From contig CALLAL010000021.1 in NCBI GenBank assembly GCA_938002255.1, positions 1-64,000 of the forward strand: 64,000 nucleotides of DNA, read 5' to 3'. Position numbers and translations under genes: made by a program. The stretch is from an uncultured bacterium. GTDB taxonomy: Bacteria; Desulfobacterota; BSN033; UBA1163. Positions 48,768-63,017 of the stretch are shown in pieces; position 1 is the stretch's first letter; each line of letters opens with the position of its first letter. The notes below the pieces were generated by a model. That model was not told the origin of the DNA. It was given only the letters and a program-made list of their open reading frames with translations, and did no database searches.

Positions 48768-51700
48768 CTATGAAATCCCTAAGATGTTCTGGTGATATTC
48801 CTGGAGCGATTGAACGGACATCCCTTTTTTGAGAAGGGATTCAATTCCATTGACCACTGCTTCAGCACCAGAGAGGGTGGTGATAATGGGGATGTTGTGG
48901 GCCACGGCCTGACTTCGGATTGCCACCTCATCCTTTTTGGGTTTTTTACCACTCGGAGTGTTGATGACGAGCTGGATTTCACCGTTTTTCATTCGGTCCA
49001 CAATATCTGGTCTTCCTTCTCCTACTTTAAATATGGTCTGCACTGCAATCCCGTTGTTTGATAATACTTTGGCTGTCCCCCTTGTGGCTACCAGTTCAAA
49101 ACCAAGGTCAACCAACTTTTTGGCAACAAAAACAATAGATCGTTTATCTTTGTTCATCACGCTGATGAAGACTCTGCCGGTTAAGGGGATCAAGGTACCT
49201 GCCGAGATTTGAGACTTGGCAAAAGCCACCCCAAAGTCTGTGTCAATCCCCATGACCTCTCCAGTTGATTTCATCTCAGGACCTAAAACCGTATCCACTC
49301 CATAAAAGCGTTTGAAAGGGAAGACCGACTCTTTCACAGCGATGTGATGAATCTCAATTTCTCTTTCGATGCCGAGTTCTTGGAGTGTTTTACCCACCAT
49401 CACCTTCGCTGCCACCTTAGCCCAGGGTATTCCAGTGGCTTTGCTGATGAAGGGGATAGTCCTTGAAGCCCTGGGATTGACCTCAAGAATATAAATGATA
49501 TCATTTTTAATTGCATACTGAATGTTCATCAAACCCACGACCTGAAGTTCTTTGGCGAGAGCATAGGTCTTCTGCTTTAATTGTTCAATCAATTCGTCAC
49601 TCAGGGAGTATGGAGGGGTAACGCAGGCACTGTCGCCAGAGTGGATTCCGGCGGCTTCAATATGTTCCATGATCCCGGCGATGACGCAGATCGATCCATC
49701 TGAAACAGCATCCACATCAATCTCGATGGCGTCCTCAAGGAATTTATCGATCAGAATCGGGTGTGTGGAAGACGCTTCTACAGCTCGCTGGACAAATTGC
49801 TCGAGAGAGGCTTCATCATAGACGATCTCCATGGCTCTCCCACCCAGAACATAAGAAGGTCTCACGATCACCGGATAACCGATCTCTTCGGCGACCCTTC
49901 TCGCTTCTCCGAAGGACGTTGCTGTGCCATTTGGAGGTTGGATCAGACGGAGTTTATGAAGGAGAACCTGGAAACGTTTCCGGTCTTCAGCCCGGTCAAT
50001 ATTGTCAGGACTTGTCCCAATAATCTTAGCGCCAGCCTTCTCAAGAGGGACAGCCAGGTTAAGGGGGGTCTGTCCTCCGAATTGGACGATGATTCCATCG
50101 GGTTTCTCTGTTTCTACAATGTGCAAGACGTCCTCAAGGGTAAGGGGTTCGAAGTAGAGTTTATCTGAGATGTCATAGTCAGTGGAGACGGTCTCCGGGT
50201 TGGAGTTGACCATGATCGTTTCATAGCCAAGTTCCTTCAGTGCAAAAGAAGCATGGACACAGCAGTAATCAAACTCTACCCCCTGTCCAATCCGGTTGGG
50301 TCCTCCGCCGAGGATCATGATCTTCTTTTTTAATGAGACCTTTGCTTCGTTTTCTGTTTCATAAGTAGAATAATAGTAGGGGGTATAGGCTTCAAACTCA
50401 GCGCCACAGGTATCCACTAATTTATAAACAGGAGAAATGGATTTCTCTTTGCGTAGGGTTCGAATGGTATGCTCATCGACTCCAAGGAGATAGCCCAGCT
50501 GGACATCGGAAAATCCAAATTCCTTAGCCCTTCGAAGGAGTTGATCGGGGATACTGAGTTGATTCGCGGTACGGGTTCTCTGCCGGAGCTCGAGGTCTCT
50601 CATGGCTGATCCATAGGAACGAATTTCTGTTTCGAGGGTGACGATTTCCTGAATATTGGAGAGAAACCAAGGATCAATCCGTGTCAATCCATAAATCTCC
50701 TCCATCTTCATCCCGAGGAGAAAAGCATAGCGGAGATAGAAAAGCCTCTCAGCATTGGGGACCATCAATCGTTTTTTCACCTGTTCTATCATTTTTGAAT
50801 GATCGAAATCGGGATAGATTTCATCCCAGACAAGTTTATCCTTTCCATCTGCGCCCAACCCAAACCTTCCGATTTCAAGGGACCGGAGGGCTTTTTGAAG
50901 GGCCTCTTTAAAGGTTCTCCCAATCGCCATGGTTTCCCCAACCGATTTCATCATAACTGTAAGCGTTGGGTCTGCATCTGGGAACTTTTCGAAGGTAAAC
51001 CGAGGGATTTTAACAACACAATAGTCGATGGTGGGTTCAAAAGAGGCAGGTGTCTTTTTCGTAATATCATTGGGGATCTCATCGAGGGTATATCCCACAG
51101 CAAGTTTGGCTGCAATTTTGGCGATGGGAAATCCCGTCGCCTTTGAAGCCAAGGCAGAGGATCGGGATACCCTTGGGTTCATTTCAATGATTACCATTCG
51201 GCCATCTTCGGGTCGGACCGCAAACTGGATATTGGATCCCCCTGTTTCAACACCGATTTCGCGGATGACACGGATGGCGGCATTTCTCATCCGTTGGTAC
51301 TCTTTGTCCGTCAGAGTCTGGGCAGGAGCTACAGTGATACTGTCTCCGGTGTGAATCCCCATGGGGTCGACATTCTCAATGGAGCAGATGATGACCACAT
51401 TATCATTGAGATCTCTCATCACCTCAAGCTCATACTCCTTCCAACCCAGTACAGATTCCTCAATCAGAATCTCACCGATCATGCTCCATTCGAGCCCACG
51501 TGCTGCCATCTCTTCGAATTCCTGGATGTTATAAGCAATCCCACCTCCAGTTCCCCCCAATGTGAAACTGGGGCGAATGATCAGGGGAAAACCGATTTCC
51601 TTCGCCACCTCCAGGGCTTCAGACATCGAATAGGCTAATCCGCTTTTCGGAAGGTCGAGGCCGATTTTCTTCATGGACTCTTTAAAAAGGTTTCGATCTT

Positions 51701-52079
51701 CTCCTTTTTTGATTGCTTCGTATTTCGCCCCAATCATCTGAACGCCATATTTTTCGAGGACCCCTGATTCATAAAGGGCAACAGAAACATTGAGTCCAGT
51801 TTGACCCCCCAGGGTGGGGAGCAGGGCATCTGGCCTCTCTCGATCGATGATCTTCTCGACGATCTCTGGCGTAATGGGTTCCATATAGATTCGATCAGCC
51901 ATCTCAGGATCGGTCATAATGGTTGCTGGATTGGAGTTGACCAATACGACTTCAAAACCTTCCTCTTTTAAGGCTTTGCAGGCCTGGGTGCCTGAATAGT
52001 CAAACTCACAAGCCTGTCCGATCACAATGGGACCTGATCCGATGATGAGAATTTTTTTGATATCGGTTCGCTTGGGCAT
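48768..52079 (-). CDS. carB: Carbamoyl-phosphate synthase large subunit
   Basis: Cytoplasmic enzyme of 1103 residues, slightly longer than the E. coli protein (1073). Two ATP-grasp halves are visible; the first shows [17 protein letters not shown] and the second [18 protein letters not shown]-terminal MGS-like allosteric domain starts near [12 protein letters not shown]. It makes carbamoyl phosphate for pyrimidines and arginine, using ammonia channelled from CarA. It starts five bases after carA. Confidence 0.98.
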
Positions 52080-52084
52080 AACGG

Positions 52085-53227
52085 CTATTCTTTAAAGCGC
52101 TCCATCATCTTCACAAATTCACCGAACAAATCCTGGGTATCCTGGGGACCGGGTGAGGCCTCCGGATGGTACTGCACGGAAAAGAGAGGTAGTTTTCGAT
52201 GCCTCATTCCCTCAAGAGTCCGGTCATTGAGGTTGATCTGCGTCAGCTCGACCTCATCCAGATTCAGTGTGCCGGGATCTACAGCAAATCCATGATTCTG
52301 AGAAGTGATGAAGACCTTTCCTGTCCTCCTATCTTTGACGGGCTGGTTTGCTCCTCGATGACCGAATTTCAGTTTAAAGGTCTTTCCCCCCAGCGCAAGG
52401 CCCAGAAGCTGATGGCCAAGGCAGATGCCAAAGATTGGTTTCTTTCCAATTAATTTACGGGCGGTTTCAATGGCATAGGGAACGCCCTCTGGATCTCCAG
52501 GGCCATTGGACAGAAGGATACCGTCTGGATTAAAGGCAAGGACTGATTCGGCTGAGGTTGAGGCAGGAAAAACCGTTACCTCGCAGCCCCAATCCCTGAG
52601 CGAACGAAGGATATTGTATTTGACTCCGAAATCGACGACGACCACTCTGGGTTTAGAGGAAGAAACGGACCTTGGGAAATGCTGGGTTAAAAATTGGGTA
52701 TCATTCGCTTCGGACCATCGATAGGGTTTTTCACAAGTGACTTCCTTGACGAGGTCCCTTCCGATCAGGCCAGGGGAGGACCTGGCTTTTTCAACGAGGC
52801 GATCCCGATTAAAGTCTTCTGTTGAAAGAATGGCTTTCATGGCCCCTTTTTCACGGATATGTTTTGTAAGGGCCCTGGTGTCCATTCCTTCGACTCCCAT
52901 AATGCGATGCTCGATCAGGTAGTCAGAGAGGGACCCATCCGCACGCCAGTTGCTGAATCGAGAACAATTCTCTTTCATGACAAAGCCCTCCACCTTCGGA
53001 TTTTGAGATTCAATGTCCACTGCATTGATCCCATAATTTCCGATGAGAGGGTAAGTCATGATGACGATTTGCCCCTTATAGGAAGGGTCCGTCAGGATTT
53101 CTTGATAGCCTGTCATACTCGTATTGAAAACGAGTTCACCTGTTTTCTCTCCAGGAAACCCGAAGGAGGTTCCTTCGTAAATGGTCCCGTCCTCAAGAGC
53201 AAGGATGGCTTTGTGAATGGTCTTCAT
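52085..53227 (-). CDS. carA: Carbamoyl-phosphate synthase small subunit
   Basis: Class I glutamine amidotransferase of 380 residues. The N-terminal part reads [16 protein letters not shown]. The active site shows the nucleophile elbow [12 protein letters not shown] and the His/Glu pair in [13 protein letters not shown]. It supplies ammonia to CarB. A terminator-like hairpin and a small leader frame lie right before its start codon, so it may be regulated by attenuation. Glutamine for it could come from the glnA gene upstream. Confidence 0.97.
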
Positions 53228-53390: not shown

Positions 53391-53678
53391 TTAAGCATGA
53401 ACATAAACCTTTGTTCGGGTAGGACGTGCCATCAGTTTTTCGATCTTTGCCTGAATCTTCTTCCGCTCAGGGTTTTTCTCCCAAGCCTTCCAGTCATCTA
53501 CCGTCTGCCAAGTGGTGATGACAATATAATTATAATGATCGTCCAATGAGCGGAGGGTTTCCCCTGAGATATACCCCTTTGAGGGGACTGCCTTGAGCCT
53601 CAACTCTCTGAGCAATTTTGCAAACTCCGCTTCCTTTCCTTTCTTGACTTTCCGATCGATAATAATCCTGACTGCCAT
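53391..53678 (-). CDS. Antibiotic biosynthesis monooxygenase (ABM) domain protein
   Basis: Protein of 95 residues of the ABM dimeric beta-barrel fold. It starts AVRIIIDRKVKKGKEAEFAKLL, continues with YNYIVITTWQTVDDWKAWEKN and ends with TKVYVHA, the usual three strands. Such proteins act as small oxygenases or heme/quinol-linked enzymes; no ligand can be named. It lies between the fusion protein and carA on the same strand. Confidence 0.82.
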   Translation of the reverse strand: MAVRIIIDRKVKKGKEAEFAKLLRELRLKAVPSKGYISGETLRSLDDHYNYIVITTWQTVDDWKAWEKNPERKKIQAKIEKLMARPTRTKVYVHA

Positions 53679-53964: not shown

Positions 53965-56900
53965 TTAATGGTATCCCTCCAGTTCTCCTTTTGGAAGAAT
54001 CCATTTAAAATCCTCTGTCTTCATGGCCTTTAATTCTCCATGGATGGGAAGGGTGAGATGTCCGTTTTCCCGGGAGATACCAAGACCAAAAACCTTCTCC
54101 AGGGCCATCAAACGATTCATCACCTCCTCCCATTTGGAGGCGTCCATAGGTTTGGTTATACATCCCTTATACTGTACCTCGCTTAACATCCCTCGAGGAT
54201 CATAGAAGATGACCTCACCAGAAGAAGCACCTGCAAGGAGCTTGGCACCCCGATAAGGTGTTTCCATCAGACGGAGGTTTCCGTTATAATCCCGACAGAG
54301 ACCGAGCATGAGGATGGAACCTCCCATCAAAGCTTGACAGAGGTGTTCATGGGCGGTACCGACAATATTGACCTCTAACCCCGGTCCCCGTGGGTCACTG
54401 ACCGCACAGACCCAACCCCGGTCAACGACATTTCCAAGGATATTGAATTTCCCTCCCTTTGCAGAATATCCCGTCACTTTTCCCGCATCGCCATGGATGT
54501 CAAGTGTTCCAGAGTGCATCACCATTCCAGTGAAATTCTGGGCGTGTCCATGGACGCGGACATGGGTGCCCATATTGAAGGCTCCACAATACTCTCCCGG
54601 ACTTCCAAAGATGTCTAAAAGTGTACCTGAGGTGTCCCCGATTCCCATCCCCATCCCAATGCCTCGCTGTCCCTCCGTACGATAAACGATGAACCTGCGC
54701 CATCCCATATGATGAGCGTGGTCGAGAAATGGACTGAGGACCCGAGACGAATCAGTTCCCTCAGGACGGAACCCTCTTGCATCAACCACCAGCACCTGAT
54801 CAAACGTTTCGGGTCGTTTCAGATTTTCAGCTTCAGGTTGAGTAACTCGAATCATCCCGTCCGGGTGATTCAACTGATCAAGGAAAGAATCAATCTGCTG
54901 AGAAACAAGATGGATCAGAGTCCCCCTGTCCTTTTTGCCTGTGTTCCAACCGGGTAGATGATCATGGATTTGCGTTAACTCCTCGAAAGCCTGTAAAGGT
55001 GGGAGGGCATTGGCGATCTCCTCCAAAACTTTTTTGAATTGATAAAAACTCCAGTGGGGAAGATGCTTAGAAACGTAATCTGAAGGAGGGGACTCTAAAT
55101 CCAGCCGTGCATTGTCCCCAGAGGGGGAAGGTTCTACAGAAGGGAATTCACCACGGGGAATCTCGATTCGTTTCCAAAACTTATCCCGAACCTCATAGCC
55201 AGTGATCTCTCCCTGCTCGTTGTAAAAAACCCTGCTCACCATACCCGGGTTTACAGTAAAGGTGAGGGGAGCTACCGTGTTTTTGATGAACCCCAGTCGA
55301 TAAAGTTCTTGAAGACCAGCATCACATCCCTGTTTCTCAGAACAGATAATACTAACAAAATTTTCTCCATCATCATAGAGCATCGCCACATTCGGTCTGA
55401 GCAGAGAGGGATCGATGATGTCCAGACGTTCAATGACTCTCTGATAGGGATCGATTCTCCCACAGAGGTATTGATAGGGACCATCTGGGGCACTTTCCAG
55501 TTCGATTTCCTGAATCCTCTCAAAACGCTCTCGGACTTCCTCAGGCAACTGACTCAGTGTCCAACCGGTTGTCGGAGAGAATGATTCCACCAGTCCATCA
55601 AAAGGATAACGGAGGTATTGACTTAACAGGTGGAGTTTGAGTGAGGCAACTGCGGTGTCCGTTTGAGCGAGAGGAGTCAGGTTAAACTGGGAAACCCGAT
55701 TGAGCATGGTACGGTAGTTGGTGGTCTCTCCGTTATGGGTGAGGGCCGTGTGAAGTTCCGCAAAAGGGTGGGAGTTAAGCTGATCCACGACCGAACCCGT
55801 AGCCAGCCTCCGGTGAATGATGTTCACGGGGGCGTCTGGAAGCTTCCAGGGGATGTGGGCCCCATCACTTTTCCAACAACCCGAATTTTTTCCACACGAG
55901 AGCACAGCGGCCTGCTTTTTCTTCCCTTCGACATAATTCTCTTGTGTGATCTTTCGGCTCAGTCGGTAGATATATTCGTCTTCGGCTTCCCGAAGAAAAT
56001 CTAAATCATGTTGATAATTCTCTGTGTTTAAATGGGAATAACGAATCAACCTGGGTGGCCAGATTGAATCGTTCAGGAGTTCTTCTTTGATAAAATGATG
56101 GAGTTCATCCTGACGGACCCGCACAAAGAAAAGGAAGAGATCTCCAGGGTCGTTTTCTCCAAATGAACGGAAGTCCTTTTCTTCACCCTCCCCATTGTTT
56201 AGGTAAGGGATTCGACATTTTTCGAGATTCCCATCAAACCCATCCACTTCGAGGCCGTGAAAATATCGTTCCATCACCCCTGCAAGAAGTTGAAGACGTA
56301 TGGTCAACGTCGTCTGCCTTGCCCTTCTGCGGATCTCTTCTGGGTCCATATCCGGTTCCCGGTGTGTGTAATCCTCTTCAATCTGGGTCTGTGAAATTCC
56401 TTTCATCAAAAGATGGAGGGCATAATGGTTCATTCGGTGGGGATAACATCCGCCCTTCCATATTCCGACGCCGTCCATTCCACGGTTGGCCATTCGATCA
56501 AGCATGAGATCCATCACATGGCTCGGAACGGGATGGTTCGAGACAATAGCCGCCACCCCGCAGTCTGAAGGAGGAGGAGAATCCATGAGGGGAGAAGTTA
56601 AGCAAGACCGGTCTTCACTCGTCCAATCTGGAAGGGAAGGAGGAAAGGCTGTTTTCTCCATCCGTCGTCGTCTTCTCTGTTGGACTCTTTCTTCTAAGAG
56701 GGGCCATTGGATGAGATCATAGCGGCCCCGAAGTTCCCGAATGTCGTTCATCTCGAGGGCGGCGATCGCCCGGATGGTTTGGGCCTGGAGGATGACGCGA
56801 AAGTTGATAATCTGCTGGGCATTAAGCTCAACATGCCTGAGCAACTGCATCTTGGGTTCAATCGTTGAGATACCGCTTCGACATCCTGATTCACAATTTC

Positions 56901-59900
56901 GGTCCCGCACACAACCAATGGCGACAAGATCTGCCGTTCCTAAAATTATTCCATCGAGCCCCAGTGCGATCCCTTTAATGACATCTCCCCAGGTGCGGAA
57001 ACCACCACTACCCATGAAAATAACATACTCTCTCAACCCATCATCCATCAATTTTTCGTGGCAGAGAGGAATTGCATACTCCATATGCATTCCCATCTGG
57101 CCTTTTATGATATCGGGAGCTGCGCCTGTGCCTCCCCGGGGTCCGTCCAACCAAACCTCAATCACCATGGCATTGTCTTTTGCAATACGAGCCAATCCTG
57201 AGACAATGAATTCGATGTCCGGAGAAGGGGAGACCTTAATGCAAATCGCCGCACGCCGATTGATCATCCGAATGGCATCAATGAAAGCCTTTACGTCTTC
57301 AATGGAATAACAATTATGGAAAGGGAAGGGAGAGATCAGACTGATTCCTTCTGAAACCCCGCGAAGCCTGGACACCAGCCCAAAAACTTTTCTTCCCAAG
57401 AGATGCCCTCCCACGCCCTGTTTGGCCCCCTGGCTATAGGCAATGACCACCCTTCGGGCACGCCGAATCGTTTCCTTGGTCACACCGAAAAGCCCTGTCT
57501 TGAGTTGGGTCGAGACATAAGGTTCGTCGTCGGGTTTCACAATAGGGACATACTGGACCTTCAACGAAAGAGGATACTTTAGCAGTGATTTGGATAACGA
57601 CTCGAAGTGGGGATGTTCCATCTCCCGTAATCGCTGAATCAGATCCCCAATCGAAATGAGCGTTCTTTCTTCCAGGACCTCTGCAAGTCTGGCCACCTGT
57701 TGATCGGTGAGATCGAGGGGAGTCCATTTTGAGTCGAGAATAAAAATCGTTGGATATCCTCCCTCACCGGTGTCCAGCTGAGTTTCAAGTGCGCGAGTGG
57801 CAAGAACACGTGCGCGCCAAGTCCCCGGACCAATGGATCCAATAGACATTCCTGCTCCCAAAAAGGCCGTTTGGAGTTTTAAATTCTGGGAGAGGTAAAG
57901 CCCACTTGAAATATGATTTAATTTGTCCTCCGGGATAGTATCGGGGTTCTGGAGGAAGAGGAGGTTGATGGAATCAAAACCGTCTCCGAGATTTCCTCGT
58001 TCTTCCGCATGAGAGAGATAAAGGGTTCTCAAATCCCCACCTGCCATCCTTCCCACTGAGGCAATCAGTTTGGCGGGCCAGACATGATCGCGGTCAAAGA
58101 TGCGAAAGCAGGAAGGGTTAAGATGACAGTGATAAAACTGATGGGGATGGGGGGAAGGCCTGATCTTTTCTGTTAACTGATGATATCGCCAACCCAGAGG
58201 ATCTCCCTCCCGAAGCATCCGTGTTTTGTTTGTCCGTTGATTCCGTTTTAATCGCTCCTCATCATGGAAAATGTCATAAATTCTTTCCTCGAGGTCATCG
58301 AAGATGAGGAGTCGGTTCTCTTCCCCGACGGTCTTTTTGATGTCCTTGAATCCAGAGGCTCCCAAAACCTCAATAATCTGGACGTTCCAAACCCGAATCA
58401 GATGGGTGAGTCGCTTCGCGAGAGCGGTTCGGTCATAGGGGATGTGGAGTGGTTCCCTAGACCGGGATTTCTCGCGTGCCAGCGGATCGATAGCTAGAAG
58501 GATGGGCCAGTCAATCTTAATTCCATTGGCTCCCCGCTGGATGGTTTTCTGAGCGTCCGCGGCGGATCGGATACCCCCTGCGGCAACGATTGAGAACCTG
58601 TGTCTGATCTTCTTTTCTACCAGATAGCGGTGGACGGCTGGAATGGCATCGGTTGTTGGATAGTATCCCTTCTCTGGGTCGTAATCTGAGTCAATACAGA
58701 GGATATCAAAAGGGGATTGGGCCAGAAACTCAAGTTTCTTCTGGAGATCGGAATTCAGACGAAGGGTCTCATCCACATCCTCTCTCTCGATCTTCAAAAC
58801 CGCACACAGAACCGTTGATTCAGGAAAGATAGTTCTCAAATTGGACGATGTCTTGAGGAGATGATCCTCTGCCTCGATTTCGACAAGGTCGAATGGAAGA
58901 TCTTTGATCGATTCTAACTCGTTTTTTAATTCTTCAGGTTTGAGCCTGAGGATGAGGCAGTGGGTCCTGCCATCCAGAATTGCTCGAAAGCGTTTGACCT
59001 CTGCCAGCCGGAGCGTCACCCGAGTTCCACCTAATCGAGAAGCCTCCACCATGGCATCGAGGAGTTCCTCTTCTAATGTCATGGGCAAGAGGTCCAGGAG
59101 AATGGGAGTTTTCAGATGGATCAAGCAAGGTCTGGGGGTTTCAATTTTTTCTCCATCAAACTTCAGATATTTTGGCCGCCTGCCAAGTTGAACCGAAACG
59201 GCATCTTCTGTGCTTTCATAAAGAAGGTTTTGGGCAGGTCCCACAATATGAAAGTGGCCAAAACGGATCGAATCATTTCCTGACCCCCGATGAGGATCTC
59301 CCTGTCCGGTGCCGGAGACAGGGATCTTGCCTGTCGTGGCCTCGAGGTCAATCCGAGTAACCACTTCCCCGGTCCAATAAGGATCATCCATGCTCAAGTA
59401 TTCAGGGTGAAACTCAACGATCGTGGCTTGAATTCCTTTGGCAATTTGGGGACATCGCTCTATGCAAGCCCCGCAACCGCGGCAGAGCCCTTCATCGGCG
59501 ATGACCACGCGGCGCGGATCTTTCTCATCGCGCCGACGCACACTGTACATACAGGCGTCAACACAGGTGGCACAATTGAGACACCTTTCTTCCTCTATGG
59601 CTACATGGTATTTGGGAAACGTCTGTCGCTGTTCCCAGATCTTCTGATCAAAACCGGTTCGGATGACGTCAAGAAACCGATAAAAGTCAGGGCTCTTTTC
59701 AATTTCCTCAACAAAGTGAGTAATCTCTTGGATCGGAAAGTCGATGTATTGAGAGAAATAGGATTCAAGGTCTTTATAAAGCCGGCGATGATTTAGATGG
59801 ACCTGACACTCCTCGTCACAGCGGCCACAGCTGAGGCAGAAATAAAGGGGAAGGATGTTCGACCGTTCGATCTTTTTCGCCTCGATGGCTCTTTTCATGG

Positions 59901-61542
59901 CGAGAAGTTTTCCTCTCGCGGTAAAGGTTTCGTCCCGGGTTGCCTGATAGACCGGGCATTTTGAAACACAGTTTCCGCACTGGGCACATGAGAATATTTC
60001 CTTCGAAATTGTTTCAAGCCCCTGGGGAATCAGGGACGTTTTCCCACGAAGGGCGCTCTCGGGAAGCAAGGAGAAGAGCCTGAAGAGAAGCCACTGCATC
60101 GTAGAGAGTTCGAGGTTGAAGAGATCCGATTGAAAGATCATCTTCGTCAAAAGCCCCCCTCTCCCTGAGAGGGTAAAGAACTTGCCTGGATTGAGGATTC
60201 CACTTGGGTCGACTCGCTTTTTATATCGCAGCAGTTTTTTTATCGTCTCTTTGGAGTAGAGGTCTCGCAAAAAAGGGGCATTCCAGATGCCGAGGCCATA
60301 GGGTTTGCCCTGATAAAATTGAATGGCTAATCTAAGCATCATTGGAATGAGAATAAGGTCAATGTAGAAGAGAGAGTTCCTACGATCTGTGGGGATCAGG
60401 GTCAAAAAAAGGACTTGGTCTTGGCTGATGAAATGAGAAGAGGGGTAGAAGGTAAGACCTAGCCGTTTTCCCCATTCGCCGATTCTTTCTTCATACTCAG
60501 TCACCTTCTGGCCCGGGAGGATGACCTCTACGGCAAGAAGGGTAGGACCGAGGGGTTTGATCGACATGGGAAGAAATCGCTCGTCCCATAAAAAACGGGC
60601 TGAGGCTTCGTCAACCCTTCGAATCTTTTCTTTTTGGAGATAATCCTTAAAGAGATGGACCTGATCTGCTTCCGAAAAGGAAATGAGGAGGAGATGTTTA
60701 TCAGGAACGGTGAGTTTGCCGTCTGACTGTGCCTGAACGACTTCAGCCCATTCTCTGTGATAGATGATAAGGTCATGAGGTTTAATGGAGGGGTGATGGC
60801 TCAATCGTTGGGCAAAGGCATAGGCGTTTGATGTTTTTTCAAAAGGGATTAGAAAAGGAAACCATTGGAAGGGTTTTTTTCCGACCCTCAATACCGCCTT
60901 AACGATGATGCCCATCTGTCCTTCTGTCCCAAGAAAAAGGTCAATCTCAGGATCTTCCGGTCTTAAATCTTTTACTTTTCCATCCGGGGTGATGACCCTC
61001 AAGGAAATCAACTGGTTCTTCACTGGTCCGTAATGGTAGGTTCCAAATCCCATGCCCCCGGTGGCAATCCATCCAGCAAGTGTTCCTCCTTTCCCAGAAG
61101 TCATGGTAAGAAGGGTGAGGCCATGGGAAGCGAGTTTTGTGTGAATATCCGCAAAGCGGGCTCCAGGCCCCACGGTTAAACTCATGGTTTGAGGATCAAT
61201 CTCTATCGTATCCATCCGACTGAGATCGATCACGATTCCTCCATGGGTTGGCACGGCACCTCCATACCCCCATGTTCCAGCCCCCCTGACCGTTAGGGGG
61301 ATTTTATGCTGGGTTGCGAAGTGGAAGATTTTTAGAAGATCTTCTTCTGTGGATGGCTGGAGAACCAGGTCCGGGAGGCTCCTGAGGAACAGATCCCGAA
61401 TGAGAGGGGGAAGATCGACATTGAGGTCATTGCGATAGTATTCGAATTTGTCAGGCGATTCGATCGCCTTCAGGCCTGGATTGCGCTGTAAGAAATCACT
61501 AAGATATTTTTTCCAGGCCAATTTTTCTTTTTTCTGATTCAT
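53965..61542 (-). CDS. Giant fusion: FAD hydroxyacid oxidase, Fe-S modules and glutamate synthase domains
   Basis: One frame of 2525 residues from the ATG at 61542, nine bases behind GAGG. Order: FAD_binding_4 (RGAGTWGYGG near 90) and C-terminal oxidase half ending DPSGILNPGKF near 450; two 4Fe-4S motifs, C519/522/525/529 and C569/572/575/579; a ferredoxin, C654/657/660/664 and C687/690/693/697; a barrel-like part (about 735-1110, TGKIPVSGTGQGD near 737); a glutamate-synthase FMN barrel (about 1140-1635, GPRGGTGAAPDIIKG near 1466) with a cysteine trio C1544/1550/1554; a class II glutamine amidotransferase beginning at C1661 (CGVAAIV, later HRRLATGS and HNGETTN); and a GXGXG domain (about 2270-2420). 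The two CCG modules of GlcF are absent. It follows glnA on the same strand. Electrons from a 2-hydroxyacid driving 2-oxoglutarate plus glutamine to two glutamates is inferred, not shown. Confidence 0.85.
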   Translation of the reverse strand: MNQKKEKLAWKKYLSDFLQRNPGLKAIESPDKFEYYRNDLNVDLPPLIRDLFLRSLPDLVLQPSTEEDLLKIFHFATQHKIPLTVRGAGTWGYGGAVPTHGGIVIDLSRMDTIEIDPQTMSLTVGPGARFADIHTKLASHGLTLLTMTSGKGGTLAGWIATGGMGFGTYHYGPVKNQLISLRVITPDGKVKDLRPEDPEIDLFLGTEGQMGIIVKAVLRVGKKPFQWFPFLIPFEKTSNAYAFAQRLSHHPSIKPHDLIIYHREWAEVVQAQSDGKLTVPDKHLLLISFSEADQVHLFKDYLQKEKIRRVDEASARFLWDERFLPMSIKPLGPTLLAVEVILPGQKVTEYEERIGEWGKRLGLTFYPSSHFISQDQVLFLTLIPTDRRNSLFYIDLILIPMMLRLAIQFYQGKPYGLGIWNAPFLRDLYSKETIKKLLRYKKRVDPSGILNPGKFFTLSGRGGLLTKMIFQSDLFNLELSTMQWLLFRLFSLLPESALRGKTSLIPQGLETISKEIFSCAQCGNCVSKCPVYQATRDETFTARGKLLAMKRAIEAKKIERSNILPLYFCLSCGRCDEECQVHLNHRRLYKDLESYFSQYIDFPIQEITHFVEEIEKSPDFYRFLDVIRTGFDQKIWEQRQTFPKYHVAIEEERCLNCATCVDACMYSVRRRDEKDPRRVVIADEGLCRGCGACIERCPQIAKGIQATIVEFHPEYLSMDDPYWTGEVVTRIDLEATTGKIPVSGTGQGDPHRGSGNDSIRFGHFHIVGPAQNLLYESTEDAVSVQLGRRPKYLKFDGEKIETPRPCLIHLKTPILLDLLPMTLEEELLDAMVEASRLGGTRVTLRLAEVKRFRAILDGRTHCLILRLKPEELKNELESIKDLPFDLVEIEAEDHLLKTSSNLRTIFPESTVLCAVLKIEREDVDETLRLNSDLQKKLEFLAQSPFDILCIDSDYDPEKGYYPTTDAIPAVHRYLVEKKIRHRFSIVAAGGIRSAADAQKTIQRGANGIKIDWPILLAIDPLAREKSRSREPLHIPYDRTALAKRLTHLIRVWNVQIIEVLGASGFKDIKKTVGEENRLLIFDDLEERIYDIFHDEERLKRNQRTNKTRMLREGDPLGWRYHQLTEKIRPSPHPHQFYHCHLNPSCFRIFDRDHVWPAKLIASVGRMAGGDLRTLYLSHAEERGNLGDGFDSINLLFLQNPDTIPEDKLNHISSGLYLSQNLKLQTAFLGAGMSIGSIGPGTWRARVLATRALETQLDTGEGGYPTIFILDSKWTPLDLTDQQVARLAEVLEERTLISIGDLIQRLREMEHPHFESLSKSLLKYPLSLKVQYVPIVKPDDEPYVSTQLKTGLFGVTKETIRRARRVVIAYSQGAKQGVGGHLLGRKVFGLVSRLRGVSEGISLISPFPFHNCYSIEDVKAFIDAIRMINRRAAICIKVSPSPDIEFIVSGLARIAKDNAMVIEVWLDGPRGGTGAAPDIIKGQMGMHMEYAIPLCHEKLMDDGLREYVIFMGSGGFRTWGDVIKGIALGLDGIILGTADLVAIGCVRDRNCESGCRSGISTIEPKMQLLRHVELNAQQIINFRVILQAQTIRAIAALEMNDIRELRGRYDLIQWPLLEERVQQRRRRRMEKTAFPPSLPDWTSEDRSCLTSPLMDSPPPSDCGVAAIVSNHPVPSHVMDLMLDRMANRGMDGVGIWKGGCYPHRMNHYALHLLMKGISQTQIEEDYTHREPDMDPEEIRRRARQTTLTIRLQLLAGVMERYFHGLEVDGFDGNLEKCRIPYLNNGEGEEKDFRSFGENDPGDLFLFFVRVRQDELHHFIKEELLNDSIWPPRLIRYSHLNTENYQHDLDFLREAEDEYIYRLSRKITQENYVEGKKKQAAVLSCGKNSGCWKSDGAHIPWKLPDAPVNIIHRRLATGSVVDQLNSHPFAELHTALTHNGETTNYRTMLNRVSQFNLTPLAQTDTAVASLKLHLLSQYLRYPFDGLVESFSPTTGWTLSQLPEEVRERFERIQEIELESAPDGPYQYLCGRIDPYQRVIERLDIIDPSLLRPNVAMLYDDGENFVSIICSEKQGCDAGLQELYRLGFIKNTVAPLTFTVNPGMVSRVFYNEQGEITGYEVRDKFWKRIEIPRGEFPSVEPSPSGDNARLDLESPPSDYVSKHLPHWSFYQFKKVLEEIANALPPLQAFEELTQIHDHLPGWNTGKKDRGTLIHLVSQQIDSFLDQLNHPDGMIRVTQPEAENLKRPETFDQVLVVDARGFRPEGTDSSRVLSPFLDHAHHMGWRRFIVYRTEGQRGIGMGMGIGDTSGTLLDIFGSPGEYCGAFNMGTHVRVHGHAQNFTGMVMHSGTLDIHGDAGKVTGYSAKGGKFNILGNVVDRGWVCAVSDPRGPGLEVNIVGTAHEHLCQALMGGSILMLGLCRDYNGNLRLMETPYRGAKLLAGASSGEVIFYDPRGMLSEVQYKGCITKPMDASKWEEVMNRLMALEKVFGLGISRENGHLTLPIHGELKAMKTEDFKWILPKGELEGYH

Positions 61543-61694
61543 GTGTTTCAACCTCGTTTGAACACCCTAAGAGCGAGGGCGATCAAGCCCGTTTCATTAC
61601 CGGTTACGGCAACGGTCAATGAATTAAAATACGATCAATGCAACCTTCTATTTTTATGAACGATACAGGCCTCATTCCCCATCCCATAGGAGTT

Positions 61695-63017
61695 TTATAG
61701 GATCGGCAGATACTTCTCCAATTCAAACTGCGACACATGGGTCCGATATTGATCCCATTCTATCTTTTTATTCTCAATAAATTTTTGGAAGATGTGATCT
61801 CCCAGAGTGTCTCTCACCAATTCGCTCTGCTCTGTCAGTTGAACCGCTTCATAGAGGTTACCCGGTAGCGATTCAATCCCGTGCCTTACCCGCGCTTCCT
61901 CAGACATCTCGAAGATGTCTTCCTCAACAGGAGGAGGAAGTTCATAGCCTTTCTCAATCCCTTTAAGCCCAGCGGCAAGCATCACGGCAAAAGCTAAGTA
62001 AGGATTGCAGGCCGGGTCAGGGGATCGAAGTTCGATCCGCGTCGCTTTCTCCTTACCCGGTTTATACATGGGGACCCGAACTAATGCAGACCGATTTCTT
62101 CTTGCCCAGGCAATATAGACAGGGGCTTCATATCCGGGAACCAGTCTCTTGTAGGAGTTGACCCACTGAGAAGTGATGGAGGTGATCTCTTTGGAATGTT
62201 TCAGAATACCAGCGATGTAGGACTTGGCAAGTTTTGAGAGATGAAATTCATCTTTCGGATCAAAAAAGGCATTTTTGTCGCCCCTAAAAAGGGATTGATG
62301 GGTATGCATCCCGCTTCCATTCTGCTTGAAAATCGGCTTGGGCATAAAGGTGGCATAGACACCATGCTTGAGTGCGACCTCTTTAACTACGAGGCGATAA
62401 GTCATGGCATGGTCAGCCATGGTTAAGGCATCGGTATAACGGAGGTCGATCTCATGCTGGCTGGGAGCGACTTCATGGTGACTGTACTCAACACGAATCC
62501 CCATAGCTTCCAGGGTGAGAATGGTCTCCCGACGAAGTTCCGTCGCGACATCAAGAGGGGTAAGATCGAAATATCCTCCTTTGTCCAGAATCTGCGGAAT
62601 TCCTTCACTGCTTTTAAAATAGAAATATTCCAGCTCAGGTCCTACATAAAAAGTGTAGCCAAGATCCTGTGCCTTTTTGAGAGTTTTTTTCAAAACCCAC
62701 CGTGGATCGCCTTTATAAGGTGTTCCGTCTGGTTCATAAATATCGGCAAACATTCTGGCGACGGCATTTTCTTTGGGCCGCCAGGGAATGATCTGAAAGG
62801 TTTTTGGGTCTGGTTTAGCAATCATGTCACTTTCATCGATGCGCGCATAGCCCTGAATCGAAGAGCCATCAAATCCCATTCCTTCTTCAAGGGCGCCTTC
62901 CAGCTCATCGATGGTAATTGCAAACCCCTTGAGAAAACCGAGAATGTCTGTAAACCAGAGTCGAATGAATTTAACATCATTTTCCTTCGCCATCTTCAAT
63001 ACGGTCTCTTTGTCCAT
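61695..63017 (-). CDS. glnA: Glutamine synthetase, type I
   Basis: Enzyme of 440 residues that joins ammonia to glutamate with ATP. Marks: the start KFIRLWFTDILGFLKG, the metal site in YVGPELEYFYF, SGMHTHQSLF with its histidine, and WARRNRSALVRVP with the ATP-site arginines. The length and the ending ESLPGNLYEAV point to the GSI-alpha group, without the NLYDLPP adenylylation tyrosine loop. AAGGAGGAG precedes the ATG. It is followed by the glutamate-synthase fusion after 143 bases, so the two form a GS-GOGAT unit. Confidence 0.97.
   Translation of the reverse strand: MDKETVLKMAKENDVKFIRLWFTDILGFLKGFAITIDELEGALEEGMGFDGSSIQGYARIDESDMIAKPDPKTFQIIPWRPKENAVARMFADIYEPDGTPYKGDPRWVLKKTLKKAQDLGYTFYVGPELEYFYFKSSEGIPQILDKGGYFDLTPLDVATELRRETILTLEAMGIRVEYSHHEVAPSQHEIDLRYTDALTMADHAMTYRLVVKEVALKHGVYATFMPKPIFKQNGSGMHTHQSLFRGDKNAFFDPKDEFHLSKLAKSYIAGILKHSKEITSITSQWVNSYKRLVPGYEAPVYIAWARRNRSALVRVPMYKPGKEKATRIELRSPDPACNPYLAFAVMLAAGLKGIEKGYELPPPVEEDIFEMSEEARVRHGIESLPGNLYEAVQLTEQSELVRDTLGDHIFQKFIENKKIEWDQYRTHVSQFELEKYLPIL

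Follow-up and report, generated by a model that had tools for sequence, protein, structure and literature searches.

Where does a glutamate synthase draw its electrons from when its own chain begins with a domain resembling a flavin oxidase? This question is raised by a gene of an uncultured bacterium (GTDB lineage Bacteria; Desulfobacterota; BSN033; UBA1163). We analyzed positions 1 to 64,000 of contig CALLAL010000021.1, and this whole stretch of 64,000 nucleotides is called the window. The gene is a single unbroken open reading frame (ORF) on the minus strand (61542-53965), encoding 2,525 amino acids (aa) from its ATG codon. With an alternative TTG start at 61551, the product would comprise 2,528 aa, the stop being at 53965. 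A GAGG box lies ten bases 5' of ATG 61542, and the ATG start is therefore favored. Residues are numbered throughout with the TTG codon (61551) as residue 1. The locus contains the following features:

61695-63017, minus strand: glnA, type I glutamine synthetase (GS), 152 bp upstream of the fusion on the same strand
53965-61542, minus strand: fused glutamate synthase gene (ORF call; same frame in eleven relatives)
60142-61542, minus strand: VAO/PCMH-type FAD module, residues 4-470 (Pfam, alignment, AlphaFold2 model and structure search)
59797-59994, minus strand: first [4Fe-4S] pair, Fer4_8, residues 520-585, with Cys 522/525/528/532 and 572/575/578/582 (Pfam, motif)
59446-59604, minus strand: second [4Fe-4S] pair, residues 650-702, with Cys 657/660/663/667 and 690/693/696/700 (Pfam, motif)
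58282-59274, minus strand: GltB-like TIM barrel, residues ~760-1090, paralogous to the FMN barrel and with an FMN-enzyme fold
56758-57894, minus strand: FMN/synthase barrel, Glu_synthase, residues 1220-1598 (Pfam, alignment)
56881-56913, minus strand: [3Fe-4S] ligands C1547, C1553 and C1557 (motif, alignment to Azospirillum GltB)
56560-56562, minus strand: codon of C1664, the glutaminase nucleophile (motif), with a predicted self-cleavage site D1663/C1664
55282-56562, minus strand: class-II glutamine amidotransferase domain, residues 1664-~2090 (Pfam, alignment)
54178-54618, minus strand: GXGXG beta-helix domain, residues 2312-2458 (Pfam)
52085-53227, minus strand: carA, carbamoyl-phosphate synthase small subunit, downstream, a conserved neighbor
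48768-52079, minus strand: carB, carbamoyl-phosphate synthase large subunit, downstream, a conserved neighbor

Domains were assigned by a Pfam search of the whole protein. FAD_binding_4 was matched at residues 60-196 (E 7e-35), followed by a weak FAD-oxidase_C match at residues 234-457 (E 4e-6), Fer4_8 and a second Fer4 pair. Four complete 4Fe-4S motifs (CxxCxxCxxxC) start at residues 522, 572, 657, and 690. In the synthase part, the matches were Glu_synthase (PF01645, E 1e-72), GATase_6 at residues 1898-1968 (weak, with an E of 8.5e-6 just below its cut-off), and GXGXG (PF01493, E 3e-9). This agrees with the domain list of the first-pass annotation, and also with its remark that the two CCG modules of GlcF are gone, as no CCG domain (PF02754) was matched in the whole protein. 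The same search gave no match to a GltD-type NADPH/FAD domain, an FrhB-type F420 module, or Glu_syn_central (PF04898). Three features had been missed: a second GltB-like barrel, the [3Fe-4S] Cys triad, and the internal position of the glutaminase Cys.

The frame had been read as one fusion of an oxidase part with a glutamate synthase, and a search for genomes with the same architecture had been proposed. This search yielded eleven further full-length fusions in related genomes, with unbroken frames of 2,528-2,570 aa and 65-72% identity to the fusion. Together with the ORF call and the Pfam matches, these intact frames uphold the one-frame reading. The fusion is contained, entire or partial, in nine of ten genomes of the host's genus. 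Among the fused relatives of the window's group, identity is comparable for all six segments (56-80%), showing that no part of the fusion is drifting free. An assembly or annotation artefact, by which two adjacent genes were joined by chance or error, might be suspected since every source is a MAG and since the frame is broken in three MAG copies. In one copy an undetermined base (N) of the assembly causes the break, and in each of the other two a single-base frame slip does; the breaks fall at two different places. However, the full frame is present in eleven independent genomes at the identity given above, which rules out an assembly error as the origin of the fusion. Moreover, Calditrichota also have fused loci, which group with those of the window's group in both the FMN tree (support 100) and the FAD tree (support 91, not starred). 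We thus give an artefact practically no probability.

To place the FAD module among its relatives, whose sequences come nearly all from MAGs, 84,980 prokaryote species were scanned with an alignment of the FAD-Fer4 part only. Of the resulting 77 loci, 20 have the FAD part in one frame with the next synthase domain, and in 49 the synthase gene is the next gene downstream of the FAD gene. Seven loci were left out as their contigs end too early. Of the 70 testable loci, 69 have the FAD part either in one frame with the synthase genes or encoded as their immediate upstream neighbor; homologues with the oxidase part always in an unrelated gene, which would have spoken against the first-pass reading, were not what we found. 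The sole exception, L117 from a Clostridia MAG, encodes a similar FAD subunit with the motif PYGIGVWN, but in place of a glutamate synthase it is accompanied by a Fer4-CCG subunit with a GcvH-like lipoyl carrier and by genes for lipoylation. A lipoate ligase, a geranylgeranyl-reductase-like flavoprotein, and LipS2 are also encoded beside this FAD protein (L117:4549-12360). By its gene content, the cluster looks like an sHdr/lipoyl system (sHdr/lipoate-binding-protein type) that may use the FAD module as input.

The split form consists of four consecutive genes in the same order as in the fusion: FAD-Fer4_8 (~615 aa), Fer4-barrel (~465 aa), Fer4-FMN synthase (~493 aa), and glutaminase-GXGXG (~870 aa). 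It is found in Syntrophaceae, Smithella, Syntrophus, Dehalococcoidia, ANME-1, Methanocellales, Thermoplasmata, Aminicenantes, Brocadiaceae, Acidobacteriota, and others. Two groups carry long fusions, namely Calditrichota with allies and the Syntrophaceae-like group to which the window belongs. As these fusions form one clade in both trees, a single old fusion event is the simplest reading of these phylogenies. The versions in Calditrichota and allies (L116, L118, L120, L123, and L124) are 2,800-2,900-aa fusions or fragments, and their FMN part is 53-60% identical to that of the window, as against only 29-30% for the FAD part.

Genes 2-3-4 also occur without the FAD gene in many other Desulfobacterota, while the FAD module was detected in about 21 of 395 genomes of the phylum. 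Three further matches in the phylum, in frames of ~1,050 aa, look like members of the YdiJ-type family. Since the three-gene form exists, one may regard the FAD module as an accessory to a split synthase, and since these synthases are closely related, the reaction does not strictly require it. In three-gene loci (L142, L144, L147-L150, L157, and L159; L040 and L042), genes of ~222 and ~307 aa often lie directly upstream; in the loci scanned they are MetV-type (DUF5981) and MetF. Several three-gene loci have an additional ~140-aa gene upstream, and in L155 and L156 an HdrA2-like gene lies downstream. A possible link of methylene-THF reductase genes to those of glutamate synthase may merit attention.

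Is the FAD module an oxidase of 2-hydroxyacids? The first-pass annotation had suggested glycolate, D-lactate, or D-2-hydroxyglutarate as the electron donor. The AlphaFold2 model of the module (pLDDT 85.5, pTM 0.86) and a structure search showed a VAO/PCMH fold with a substrate-binding domain. The closest matches were mouse LDHD (mLDHD; VIA Z 32.4, rmsd 2.6 A over 430 aligned residues), LctD (VIA Z 31.1), and human D-2-HGDH (VIA Z 29.1). In these enzymes the substrate is held by an Arg and by two His and a Glu around a metal, and a further His acts as the base. The five active-site residues are strictly conserved in D-2-HGDH, D-LDHs, and GlcD (PMC7801405), and their Ala mutants are inactive in LDHD (PMC10589216) and D-2-HGDH (PMC7801405). 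In the FAD module, the substrate-carboxylate Arg (R325 in the fusion) is invariant in 47 of 47 aligned relatives, which together with the fold would suit oxidation of such a hydroxyacid with transfer of its electrons to GOGAT. In contrast, the metal Glu is replaced by Pro and the base His by Tyr in all 47, the second metal His is absent, and the first is kept in only some of them. The motifs HxGDGNxH and EHGxG were found in none of the 77 loci, and the C5-carboxylate-binding Lys of D-2-HGDH also seems not to be conserved. Thus, of the Arg-His-His-Glu-His site of D-2-hydroxyacid dehydrogenases, the Arg alone is retained throughout. Where the E-H-G motif of these enzymes stands, the fusion has P417-Y418-G-L-G-I-W423-N424, and the corresponding motif PY[GS]xGxWN is nearly invariant among the aligned relatives, indicating that the active site was rebuilt and did not decay. 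The module is thus predicted not to be a classical hydroxyacid dehydrogenase, and oxidation of hydroxyacids by the known mechanism is unlikely. We consider a hydroxyacid-coupled synthase very improbable. With the hydroxyacid site lost, support also falls away for the proposed loop in which D-2-hydroxyglutarate would yield 2-oxoglutarate as the amino acceptor.

The region between the clusters and the FMN domain (residues ~760-1090) forms a second GltB-like TIM barrel. Its model matched FMN enzymes (IDI-2, hydroxyacid oxidases, and IMPDH) with VIA Z values up to 18.7, and it carries an invariant GG motif. GOGAT chains were not among the structure matches listed for this barrel, which is no evidence against kinship; the barrel may be the counterpart of the Glu_syn_central domain. 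The Fer4 motif of split gene 3 is missing from the fusion.

At the synthase end, the FMN barrel was aligned to 7mfm, 2vdc, and 1ea0. C1547, C1553, and C1557 align with the [3Fe-4S] ligands Cys1102, Cys1108, and Cys1113 of Azospirillum GltB. The glutaminase Cys and the HxR, HNG, and TDT motifs are invariant across fused and split forms. Judged by these conserved residues and the FMN domain, the synthase end looks functional.

Class-II glutaminases belong to the Ntn family, and their Cys must sit at a free N-terminus to work. In the fusion the glutaminase Cys is internal: C1664 lies in the sequence PPSD-CGVAA, which is conserved among the fused proteins, with SN-CGVAA in the Calditrichota fusions. 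In the split forms, this Cys is preceded by a leader some 10-40 residues long (EGG-CGVVG), and in GltB it is Cys1 (PMC8097209). From the required N-terminal Cys and its internal position in the fusion, we infer self-cleavage into two chains. A leader-removing self-cleavage, inherited by the fusion, probably now cuts it before C1664 and would leave chains of ~1,660 and ~860 residues. The glutamate synthase described earlier as complete is indeed so in its parts, but its glutaminase can work only if the chain is cut at this point. A programmed frameshift or an internal start at the glutaminase was rejected, as no Met lies beside C1664 and the frame breaks in relatives are at differing places.

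The neighborhood links the fusion to ammonia assimilation. A glnA gene likewise lies upstream in the fused relatives and in ANME-1, while downstream we found carA in a fused relative and carB in ANME-1. Smithella-type loci contain a type III GS, and G051 contains type III GS together with carA. Between the fusion and carA, the window has a 95-aa ORF (53391-53678, minus strand); in a fused relative, an ORF of the same size and place encodes an ABM domain (PF03992; L058:17980-18264). Smithella-type loci (L077, L125, L128-L130, and others) encode a ~865-aa protein downstream of the glutaminase gene, and the two such proteins scanned (L036:3957-6557 and L128:17707-20289) match only the ATP-binding domain of PPDK. 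Elsewhere in the host genome, a glutamate dehydrogenase is encoded, and several GltD-like proteins are encoded on other contigs only. A PF01645 search revealed no second complete GOGAT in the genome; the remaining matches, judged by sequence, were an IMP dehydrogenase and two stand-alone GltB-like proteins of ~530 aa. The latter (L002, G000:C21:86441; L003, G000:C25:78860) have a Cys-rich N-terminus and are without a glutaminase.

No redox partner gene (etf, gltD, NADH dehydrogenase, or ferredoxin) was recognized among the neighbors of the loci scanned, suggesting that the FAD module itself is the likely electron entry. Nevertheless, electrons could also come from one of the GltD-like proteins whose genes lie on other contigs. 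More generally, an ETF, ferredoxin, flavodoxin, or GltD-like protein might dock, with the FAD module acting as a relay only. An analogy is EtfAB on LctD of Acetobacterium woodii; LctD, known from the Ldh-EtfAB complex, ranks among the nearest folds, and small substrates may be shut out of the rebuilt active site. Two points speak against such a protein carrier: in the loci scanned, no etf, gltD, or ferredoxin gene was recognized close to the cluster, and FAD would be superfluous in a ferredoxin-dependent synthase. We regard this alternative as rather unlikely.

The order of the modules, FAD, two 4Fe-4S pairs, and [3Fe-4S]/FMN, suggests that electrons move linearly from a two-electron donor to the FMN of the synthase, and the flow from FAD through the Fe-S clusters to FMN, as assumed in the first-pass annotation, is the natural reading of this order. 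The two extra cluster pairs and the second barrel would also make branching possible: ferredoxin could feed the clusters, and the FAD could bifurcate or drain electrons to another acceptor or sense the redox state. The three-gene synthases of many Desulfobacterota, presumably with their own donor, would suit this idea. The neighborhood, however, suggests no acceptor, and both the order FAD-FeS-FeS-FMN and the fusion itself fit a linear chain, making such a second branch improbable.

We therefore return to a glutamate synthase that is linked to GS and takes up electrons through an FAD module of its own, fed by a diffusible donor, a reading which we consider probable. It would be the GOGAT of a GS-GOGAT ammonia-assimilation locus, with the built-in FAD module replacing GltD or ferredoxin. 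A diffusible two-electron donor, other than a metal-bound D-2-hydroxyacid, would reduce the FAD, and single electrons would pass through the two [4Fe-4S] pairs to the [3Fe-4S]/FMN center. Reduced FMN would then turn 2-iminoglutarate, formed from 2-oxoglutarate and ammonia channeled from the glutaminase, into glutamate. The mature enzyme would comprise the ~1,660-residue redox chain and the ~860-residue glutaminase/GXGXG chain. A flavin is required for hydride donors but not for ferredoxin, and we thus rank NAD(P)H first as the donor, protein carriers next, and then other small molecules. NAD(P)H is a tentative first guess, reached by exclusion and from the need for a flavin. VAO-fold enzymes that use NADPH exist, such as MurB.

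Comparison with known systems shows that the fusion is a glutamate synthase in all features tested other than its donor module, the match to the central domain, and the Cys position. It shares with GltBD of Azospirillum and E. coli the class-II glutaminase, FMN barrel, [3Fe-4S] site, and GXGXG domain, as well as FAD and two 4Fe-4S clusters as input. Unlike GltBD, it has a VAO/PCMH FAD domain as input instead of the GltD type, the order FAD-FeS-FeS-barrel-FMN-glutaminase-GXGXG, four 4Fe-4S motifs, an internal glutaminase Cys, and no Pfam match to the central domain. A Fer4-FMN subunit with an exchangeable donor module adjoining is also known from the split archaeal-type synthase and the F420H2-dependent GltS (FGltS, PMC3448663; FrhB10 clusters, PMC9012536). 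There, the swapped-in donor subunits of related synthases are FrhB-like and serve F420H2 (PMC3448663; PMC9012536), whereas no FrhB-type domain was matched in the fusion. LDHD, LctD, D-2-HGDH, and GlcD resemble the FAD module in the two-domain VAO/PCMH fold (VIA Z 29-32 for the first three), the FAD site, and the conserved Arg, but the fusion has a PY-G-x-G-x-WN motif in place of their metal site and catalytic His. As in YdiJ-type and GlcF-type FAD/Fer4/CCG proteins, the FAD domain is followed by a Fer4_8 cluster pair, and the first [4Fe-4S] pair resembles the N-terminus of GlcF. In contrast to these proteins, the fusion has no CCG domains, and its clusters lead into a glutamate synthase.

A description of this architecture was not found among the papers searched, a coverage that leaves out many subscription papers. 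The fusion may, at somewhat less than an even chance, represent a new class of glutamate synthase in anaerobic bacteria and archaea. Such a class would be defined by a rebuilt 2-hydroxyacid-dehydrogenase fold and a donor new to glutamate synthases, and in two lineages it would be one self-cleaving polyprotein with its nucleophile ~1,660 residues from the start. The internal Ntn Cys offers a case for how a class-II glutaminase matures within a long chain, and the additional GltB-like barrel is relevant to the question of whether a duplicated FMN barrel gave rise to the GOGAT central domain. Glutamate synthase is one of the main routes by which nitrogen enters biomass, and through its electron source the assimilation of nitrogen is tied to energy metabolism. 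If our reading is true, the FAD module would join GltD, ferredoxin, and FrhB-type F420 modules as a fourth and widespread kind of electron entry, and would show how syntrophs and methane-oxidizing archaea living near the thermodynamic limit pay for ammonia assimilation.
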